From: Thioalkalivibrio sp. ALMg11 | Lineage (GTDB): Bacteria > Pseudomonadota > Gammaproteobacteria > Ectothiorhodospirales > Ectothiorhodospiraceae | Assembly: GCF_000377905.1 (NCBI RefSeq) | Contig: NZ_KB898871.1 | Coordinates: 345,001 to 409,000, forward strand | Length of the DNA: 64,000 nt | Direction of reading: 5' to 3' | Part shown: positions 60,058 through 62,281 of the stretch, piece by piece | Layout: every line of letters starts with the position of its first letter | How positions within the stretch are numbered: the first letter of the stretch is position 1 | Notes under the pieces: model-generated | What the model saw: only the letters and a program-made list of their open reading frames with translations | What the model was told of the DNA's origin: nothing | The model's database searches: none | Made by a program: the position numbers and the translations under genes

Positions 60058-60348
60058 ATGGGTATTGGTGGTATCAGCATTTGGCAGCTCCTCATCGTCC
60101 TGCTCATCGTCGTGCTGCTGTTCGGCACGAAGAAGCTGCGCAACATGGGTGGGGATATCGGCTCGGCCATGAAAAATTTCCGCCAGGCGGTCAAGGATCC
60201 CGACGCCGAGAAGAAGGAAGGCGAGGAAGACGACGAGCAGCGCGAGGTCGAGAACCAGACGGACAGCGAAGGCCGGGTGGTCGACGCCGAGGTGAAGAAG
60301 AGCAGCGAAAAGGATTCCGACGCCTCGCAATCGGACAAGAAGTCCTGA
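60058..60348 (+). CDS. tatA: Twin-arginine translocase subunit TatA
   Basis: TatA forms the size-variable pore of the Tat system. The 96-residue protein has an N-terminal transmembrane helix ([18 protein letters not shown]), the conserved hinge-FG and amphipathic helix [20 protein letters not shown], and a very acidic and Lys-rich C-terminal tail. The short MGIGGISI start is typical. Confidence 0.96.
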
Positions 60349-60392: not shown

Positions 60393-61094
60393 ATGTTCGA
60401 CATTGGTTTCTGGGAAATCATCATCATCGTGCTGGTGGCGCTTCTGGTCGTGGGGCCGGAGCGTCTGCCCGGGCTTGCGCGCGAGATCGGGCGCTGGGTG
60501 GGCAAGACGCGGCGCTTCGTCCATAGCGTGCGCTCCGATTTCGAGCAGGAGCTGCAGACTGACGAACTGCGCAACATGTTGAAGAGCCAGGATCGCGAGA
60601 TCCGTCAGCTCAAGGACATGATGGACGAGACCGAGACCAGTCTGCGCGAGGACATCGAGGATACCGAGCGGGACCTGCGCGAAGATATCGAGGGCAAGCC
60701 GAAGACCCGCAAGGATCTCTCCGACAAGGAGCAAAAGGCCCTGGCGGAGAACAAGGCCAAGCCCGCCGTACGCGACAAGCCGTCCATGCGGAGCCCGGAT
60801 GCCGAGGTTCGCGACTCGGGCGAGGATGCGCCGGAGGCGGCCGACGACGCGGATGCGTCCGAGGTTCGGCGTGTGCCCACCCAGGGCGATCTGGATGGCA
60901 ACTTGATGACCGACGACCCGGCGCTGGCCGCCGAGCAAAAGGCGCGCGCCGCCGAAGGCCCGCGTCCGGAGCGGAAGAAACCGGCGGTGCGCGAACGGCG
61001 CACCCCGGACCCCGCCGAGTCGCGAGGGGGCGAGGCCTCTGATCCCGAAGCGGATACCACCCACGACGACCCGACCCCTGACAAGCACTCATGA
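60393..61094 (+). CDS. tatB: Twin-arginine translocase subunit TatB
   Basis: TatB helps TatC recognise twin-arginine signals. The 233-residue protein begins [20 protein letters not shown] with the conserved [15 protein letters not shown] amphipathic region, then a coiled, charged segment (about 45-100) and an acidic/basic low-complexity tail rich in Asp, Glu, Ala and Arg. It is longer than typical TatB (about 170). Its end overlaps tatC by 4 bases. Confidence 0.95.
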
Positions 61095-62281
61095 GCAAGA
61101 CCAAACCGGGGGTCGAGCCGAGTCCGGAAGCGACCGAGACCCTGCTCACGCACCTGATCGAGCTGCGCGACCGCATCCTCAGGATGTTCATCGCCATCCT
61201 GGTGATGTTCCTGATCCTGTTCCCGTTCGCCAACCCGATCTACACTTGGCTGGCCGGCCCGCTGATGCAGCACCTGCCGGAAGGCACCAGCATGATCGCG
61301 ATCGACGTGGCCGCGCCGTTCCTGATCCCGTTCAAGCTGACCCTGCTGCTGGCGGTGGTGCTCAGCATCCCCTACCTGCTGTATCAGATCTGGTCCTTCG
61401 TGGCGCCGGGGCTCTATTCCCATGAAAAGAGCATGGCGCTGCCGCTGGTGGCTTCGTCGACCGCGCTGTTCTATCTGGGCATGGCGTTCGCCTACTTCGT
61501 GGTCTTCCCGCTGATCTTCGCGTTCTTCACGGCCACGGCGCCCGAGGGCGTGGCCGTGATGACCGATATCTCGCGTTATCTATCGTTCGTGATCATGCTG
61601 TTTATCGCCTTCGGCATCGCCTTCGAGGTGCCGGTGGCAACGATTCTGCTGGTCTCCATGGGCGCCACGACCCCGGCCAAGCTCTCGCAGAAGCGCCCCT
61701 ACGTGATCGTCGGGGTGTTCCTGGTCGGCATGGTGCTGACCCCGCCAGACATCATCTCGCAGACGCTGCTGGCCCTGCCGATGTGGCTGTTGTTCGAGAT
61801 CGGCCTGATCCTGTCGCGCATCATGGAGCGCAAGAAGGCCCAACGCCGCGCGACTGCGGGTGGTGACGATGCGGCCGACGCCGATGACGGTCCGGACGAC
61901 GATGGACCGGGTGGCGGCGGTGGTACGCCGCGCGGTGGCCCTGGCGGTTCGGGCAAGACGTCCGGCACCACGCGGGCCACTTCGTCCACGGCGGCCGCCT
62001 CCACCAGTGGGGGCGCCAGCGCCGCCGCGCGCACCGGATACACGCCGCTGACCGACGACGAGATGGACGCCGAGCTCGACCGCATCGAGGACGAGCAGGC
62101 CGATCTGCGCCGCCAGCGCGAGGCGCGTCAGTCCGGGAGCGTGCCCGCCACCGACGCCCCCGCCGATCCGGCGGCCGAGGGCCAGGGTGGCGAGGACCAA
62201 GCTGACGGCGGCCAGCCCGAAGAAGGTTTGCGCGACGCGGACGCATCGCAGGAGGATGGCAATACGGGGCGCGATCGCTGA
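61091..62281 (+). CDS. tatC: Twin-arginine translocase subunit TatC with long C-terminal tail
   Basis: TatC is the signal-peptide receptor of the Tat system. The six-helix core occupies residues 1-250, with [15 protein letters not shown] at the N-terminus, [11 protein letters not shown], the conserved Phe and Pro residues of [13 protein letters not shown] and [17 protein letters not shown]. Typical TatC ends near residue 255. Here about 145 residues follow: a Gly/Asp-rich segment, a Ser/Thr/Ala-rich segment, a short acidic helical stretch ([15 protein letters not shown]) and a final acidic tail. The frame is open and continuous to 62281, with no sign of a frameshift. Confidence 0.96.

Follow-up and report, generated by a model that had tools for sequence, protein, structure and literature searches.

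TatC of Thioalkalivibrio sp. ALMg11 carries a long acidic tail which, judged by its sequence, is not uniform disordered filler: a fast-drifting linker is followed by one short constrained motif and a drifting end. The motif is found in TatC tails of other gammaproteobacterial genomes, and its presence correlates with that of a conserved TatA tail motif. We read the tail as a tether with a docking helix, most likely for the TatA tail, that would help to hold or recruit TatA at TatBC; we give this reading a probability of about 45%.

The window, i.e. the whole stretch of DNA that was analysed, comprises 64,000 nt of contig NZ_KB898871.1 (345,001-409,000, forward strand). The gene order in it is tatA, tatB, then tatC, as also known from Escherichia coli (Table 1). 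The only Pfam domain in the TatC protein was TatC itself (PF00902; residues 21-230, E 4.6e-69, 232.8 bits against a cut-off of 25.1), a LysM domain was not present, and the NCBIfam model TIGR00945 matched residues 18-235 with 229.7 bits (cut-off 132.7). A match to PRK10921 extended to residue 255, but under its cut-off. Structure comparison confirmed the TatC fold (4hts; Z 21.0, rmsd 2.5, 225 aligned residues). The adjoining genes belong to the TatA/TatB family (TIGR01411, 74 bits, cut-off 53.9; TIGR01410, 81.8 bits, cut-off 56.5) and the tails of TatA (96 aa) and TatB (233 aa) are likewise charged and largely acidic, as had been predicted.

Table 1 Features of the tat genes in the window (positions in the window) and loci with a FimV-like end of the TatC tail
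Feature	Position or loci	Strand	Evidence
tatA, 96 aa	60058..60348	+	ORF; Pfam PF02416
TatA tail motif GRVVDAEVK, residues 72-80	60271..60297	+	PSSM 21.3 vs threshold 11.1
tatB, 233 aa, long charged tail	60393..61094	+	ORF; Pfam PF02416, TIGR01410
tatC, whole frame with stop, 396 aa	61091..62281	+	ORF; Pfam PF00902
TatC six-helix core including last helix, residues 1-246	61091..61828	+	domain matches, AlphaFold2, dN/dS 0.04
Variable Gly/Asp- then Ser/Thr/Ala-rich linker, residues 247-316	61829..62038	+	dN/dS 0.33, pLDDT 39-53
Conserved putative docking motif, residues 317-336	62039..62098	+	dN/dS 0.03; class-wide profile matches
Predicted helix over motif, residues 322-347	62054..62131	+	AlphaFold2 pLDDT 95, 96, 83 (321-350)
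Drifting acidic end after the motif, residues 337-396	62099..62278	+	dN/dS 0.52; low pLDDT
FimV-like tail end of tatC, first half	L277, L279, L280, L281, L282, L286, L290, L295, L298		in-house model
FimV-like tail end of tatC, second half	L299, L300, L305, L314, L315, L318, L336, L338, L347		in-house model

The TatC core ends at about residue 246 and is followed by an acidic tail of 150 aa (residues 247-396); counted from residue 244, the tail has 153 residues and a net charge of -16. It is Gly/Asp-rich, then Ser/Thr/Ala-rich and then acidic, and by the established topology of TatC it lies in the cytoplasm. In its existence, composition and location the tail is thus as the original prediction had described it. 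The sole candidate for a Pfam domain in the tail, MEA1 (E 0.13), was taken as a chance match. That the frame was lengthened by a sequencing error or a lost stop, a doubt raised along with the prediction, has a probability close to nil, since all 23 of the loci L001-L023 gave long-tailed TatC frames, extending 339-384 residues beyond the start of HLxELR (only frames >300 aa were taken, and L020 lies at a contig end). A frameshift or lost stop is ruled out as the origin of the tail by these relatives, and dN/dS values below 1 together with in-frame indels argue that it is translated. L024 and L025 were truncated by contig ends, and three of 29 other genomes of the genus were without a TatC match (two of them <81% complete). 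A second, more divergent TatC with a tail of 23 residues was seen in L040 (G018:C321); its genome, listed under the same genus, has the long-tailed TatC as well, and as the assembly is 66% complete, contamination is possible. The description of the tail as unusual held for its length, but the tail is at the end of a continuum: in 157 complete TatA/TatC pairs outside L001-L030, a set enriched for motif carriers, the median tail length was 44 residues and 26 tails reached at least 100.

Selection on the gene was estimated by the Nei-Gojobori method with the gene divided into core, linker, motif and end. Among the closest relatives (L001-L008), dN/dS was 0.04 in the core, 0.33 in the linker, 0.03 in the motif (counted over 22 codons beginning at its start) and 0.52 in the end; the corresponding values were 0.04, 0.16, 0.01 and 0.24 for L009-L013 and 0.06, 0.36, 0.05 and 0.53 for L001-L014. 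Identity within L001-L008 was 95% over the 22 codons of the motif and 65% in the linker, which also has indels. These dN/dS values indicate that the tail is translated and selected, and that selection on one short stretch of it is as strict as on the membrane core; the possibility of a tail free of purifying selection fails for the helix. AlphaFold2, run on the single chain with 40 aligned TatCs, gave block means of pLDDT of 39-53 for residues 261-310, of 95, 96 and 83 for the blocks in 321-350, and values mostly <50 from residue 355 on. The predicted helix (322-347, pLDDT ~95) is flanked by low-confidence stretches. It is acidic and amphipathic with M325, L329 and I332 as hydrophobic positions, and Thr321 followed by Glu324 resembles a helix N-cap box. 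A plainly disordered tail, as first proposed, does not account for a helix under core-level constraint. Such an anatomy, in which a single constrained amphipathic helix sits on a long and variable tether, is the reason for reading the motif as a putative docking motif. The end of the tail (residues 337-391) matched a 383-aa frame in L050 (G010:C10:205452-205622; 46%, E 8e-4), probably as low-complexity acidic sequence.

Pfam TatC matched 319 of 369 gammaproteobacterial genomes. In the same number of evenly drawn genomes of the class, a motif profile of 25 positions matched 96 at E <= 0.1, chance matches being expected among the weak ones. The best 30 were all in TatC tails; among these genomes, G000, G035, G045, G051 and G055 had supplied segments of the model and G022 is of the same genus, and below the best 30 frames were inspected only for loci fetched later. 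Matches with E 0.004 to 0.08 were also seen in frames that are unlike TatC by length (739, 1237, 743, 536 aa and others). In a sample of the phylum which includes genomes of the class, the motif was found in 5 of 299 genomes at E <= 0.01; those inside the class were the window's own genome and the TatC tails L271 and L272, and the two outside it (E 0.007 and 0.009) are weak and were taken as chance. In the set of 180 TatA/TatC pairs described below, which is enriched for carriers, 101 TatC tails had a score beyond the 99% level for shuffled tails. In this set the motif began 9 to 95 residues (median 43) after residue 244, and 2 to 76 residues followed it. In the 68 carriers scoring >25, position 13 was E in 98%, position 10 M in 92%, position 15 D in 91%, position 14 L in 86% and position 6 S or T in 89%. 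Among the named records examined, those of Raoultella, Oceanisphaera, Marinobacter nitratireducens, Pseudomonas insulae and Alcanivorax limicola had short tails without the motif, and some TatC tails of Methylococcaceae look like decayed versions of it. The acidic helix, which had been singled out for comparison across relatives, is therefore conserved far beyond the family.

This spread bears on the view that the tail is a drift in composition typical of a haloalkaliphile, without specific function. The linker and the end do change fast and the tail is strongly acidic, but the constraint on the motif equals that on the membrane core and the motif is kept in lineages distant from the genus; it also scores in Candidatus Achromatium palustre and in other records whose titles name no halophiles (habitat being judged by title only). 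Because of this constraint and this spread, halophile drift is ruled out as the cause of the helix, and the general halophile adaptation once offered for it finds no support. Composition drift is refuted for the motif and possible for the linker and the end; as an account of the tail as a whole we regard it as very improbable.

The TatA tail is built likewise, with a variable linker and then a conserved motif near the C-terminus, but the motif is a different one, GRVI[DE][GA]EV. It was carried by the TatA tails of many loci at a median of 7 residues from the C-terminus, often followed by KEKDKV/A at the extreme C-terminal end. According to the accessible part of a 2026 review, the C-terminal domains of TatA/B are not conserved and dispensable (PMC13186574). 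The TatA motif was first noticed in part of the same data and tested afterwards. TatC frames were found in 209 loci, 200 of them also with TatA, and 180 pairs were kept, the others being duplicates or having a short core, an X in a frame or an incomplete frame. The pairs came from L001-L030 (23), L031-L049 (19), the motif search (20, chosen for having the motif), the TatC search (23) and regions (95) that were hand-picked, nearly all among the best-scoring matches listed for Pfam TatC; because its sources were chosen in this way, the set is no measure of motif frequency. The TatA frames of L075, L088, L090, L093 and L098 are apparently cut at the start.

Of the 157 pairs outside L001-L030, 64 carried both motifs and 54 neither, while the TatC motif stood alone in 14 and the TatA motif in 25; without the motif-search loci as well (n = 137), the corresponding counts were 46, 54, 12 and 25. 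Pagel's comparison of correlated with independent gain and loss, made on a 180-tip tree of TatC cores, gave a likelihood ratio (LR) of 35.6, which was reached in none of 120 simulations under independence (maximum 8.3); LRs of 24 to 38 were obtained with eight further pairs of score thresholds. For loss of the TatC motif, the fitted rate was 4.0 where the TatA motif is absent and 0.175 where it is present. In control comparisons, none of the LRs came up to the 5% level (4 df): for the TatC motif they were 6.4 with TatA length, 5.3 with TatB length and 8.6 with the TatA C-terminus, and for the TatA motif 3.2 with TatB length and 4.5 with TatA length. The LR was 29.5 on a tree of TatA+B+C, 18.5 with TatA+B only, 28.3 on a TatC tree without L001-L030, and 11.9 with only TatC tails of at least 35 residues (n = 126). 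In 26 independent pairs differing in the TatC motif, the TatA motif differed in the same sense in 12, in the opposite sense in 2 and was tied in 12 (sign test, p 0.013). Named loci among the matches listed numbered 80, with a complete TatC frame in 77 and a complete pair in 72; in the later-fetched named pairs outside the first set (n = 60), both motifs were present in 18, the TatC motif only in 7, the TatA motif only in 4 and neither in 31, counts that are uncorrected for phylogeny. The coupling has exceptions in both directions: 14 of the 78 motif-bearing TatCs outside L001-L030 had no scored TatA motif, including the well-conserved L035, and the TatA motif was still present in 25 of 79 TatCs lacking the TatC motif. 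One of the 14, L090, has a cut TatA frame that shows VIEGKA, and correcting it raised the LR to 37.0. In sum, the presence of the TatC motif correlates with that of the TatA motif after correction for phylogeny. The earlier idea that the tail contacts TatA or TatB thereby gains indirect support on the side of TatA.

A motif was also seen in the tail of TatB. YLV[KR], a pattern picked by eye after the data had been seen, occurred in 17 of the 180 loci, all of which carry the TatC motif; tested against the TatC motif it gave an LR of 20.9, and against the TatA motif one of 12.5. A fuller form, YLV[KR][AS], is found e.g. in L036, L078 and L080. By eye, YLV[KR] was not found in the TatB tail of the window. 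Since this TatB motif also correlates, TatA is not alone in its link to the TatC motif, and a partner shared by the tails could underlie that link.

In relatives of the Chromatiales type, the TatC tail terminates in a domain like the C-terminal domain of FimV/HubP. Such tails were found in records named Thiocapsa, Thiocystis, Thiohalocapsa, Sedimenticola, Achromatium and others. Three tails were scanned with TIGR03504 (cut-off 30.65): L305 scored above it with 38.9 bits, L318 and L281 below it with 25.4 and 24.5 bits. An in-house FimV model matched 18 of the 77 named tails and 2 of 180 others, including the eight used to build it. A single-sequence structure model of the L299 tail had a mean pLDDT of 67.5, with ~90 over the domain, and its best six structure matches were all TPR3 of Pseudomonas aeruginosa FimV, the best being 4mbq (40% identity, rmsd 0.9 over 48 columns, Foldseek E 0.012); at E <= 0.001 Foldseek gave no match for this model. 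FimV/HubP are described, in the accessible part of one report, as membrane proteins in which a long acidic region lies in the cytoplasm and a FimV domain forms the C-terminus (PMC12918733). The C-terminal domain (TIGR03504; 4mbq, 4mal) is thus what several Chromatiales-type TatC tails share with these proteins, whereas TatC of the window is without it: a scan of the complete protein against NCBIfam (E <= 0.001) did not give the domain, and the in-house model had no match in its tail at E <= 1e-4.

TatC of E. coli (9dzz, 9e01) has the same core fold (Z 18.0/18.1, 231/232 residues, rmsd 3.8/4.3, identity 59-60%), but with a total of 266 residues the 9dzz chain has a short tail, unlike TatC of the window. 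Chain 9r91, near-identical to 9dzz, is presumably also E. coli TatC, and in the portion of it that was examined there was no tail motif. In E. coli structures of 2026, TatC was modelled for residues 6-236, according to the accessible part of the report (PMC13323110). Among solved chains, the best match of the motif profile was the acidic helix SDAELDAELDALAQED in the tail of the ESCRT-III protein Vps60 (2luh; E 0.0019). We take this to be a MIT-interacting motif and, presumably, a docking helix on a flexible acidic tail. Vps60 is, however, an unrelated eukaryotic protein, and since the match covers 16 residues of biased composition it is at most an analogy of the mode of action. The TatC motif may also resemble the CheY-binding N-terminal peptide of FliM. 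In the literature searched, including the accessible parts of PMC3827258, PMC3712464 and PMC10197872, neither a conserved TatC-tail motif nor FimV on TatC was described; subscription journals are thinly covered by it and an earlier description is possible.

We propose that the disordered linker lets the short acidic amphipathic helix sample the cytoplasmic face of the Tat complex. We infer that the helix is a putative protein-binding motif whose likeliest partner would be the TatA tail, via the co-evolving motif near its C-terminus, and that the two tails together may assist in retaining TatA at the TatBC receptor or in recruiting it there. The main rival is a common cytosolic partner of all three tails. 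The TatC helix would then bind a separate protein (a chaperone, a maturation factor or a cell-pole hub) that is shared with the tail motifs of TatA and TatB, and the tails would co-evolve because they have this partner in common. The correlation of the TatB motif with the TatC motif fits this explanation, as does the FimV/HubP domain on Chromatiales-type tails, which is a ready-made docking module; but the correlation is strongest with TatA (LR 35.6 vs 20.9), and among the frames at 58-64 kb no obvious partner gene was seen by eye (his genes, tatABC, phosphoglycerate mutase). We consider a shared partner somewhat unlikely.

Alternatively, the helix could dock in cis on TatC/TatB and regulate the receptor, for example by covering its cytoplasmic face until a substrate arrives. 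The pLDDT of the helix is high in a single-chain model and the linker of most carriers is long enough for folding back, but from work on E. coli the signal-peptide site on TatC is known to be acidic, which disfavours an acidic helix there, and docking in cis would not by itself predict the correlation with TatA. We consider it an improbable explanation. Returning to the TatA tail as partner, a more far-reaching version is doubtful: a Tat variant widespread in Gammaproteobacteria could have a tail-to-tail clasp, in which the TatC helix grips the TatA motif and recruits TatA, and Chromatiales-type tails could have gained a polar-hub domain of the FimV/HubP type that might place Tat export at a cell site. 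If this were true, the clasp would have been overlooked because the main model organism, E. coli, has a TatC whose tail is short.

The gathering of TatA at TatBC and any role of the Tat tails are open questions that have been studied mostly in E. coli. A motif under core-level constraint which is correlated with a motif in TatA offers a concrete peptide and three residues to mutate, and the presence of a FimV domain on part of the TatC tails points to a connection, open to testing, of Tat export with the organisation of the cell pole.
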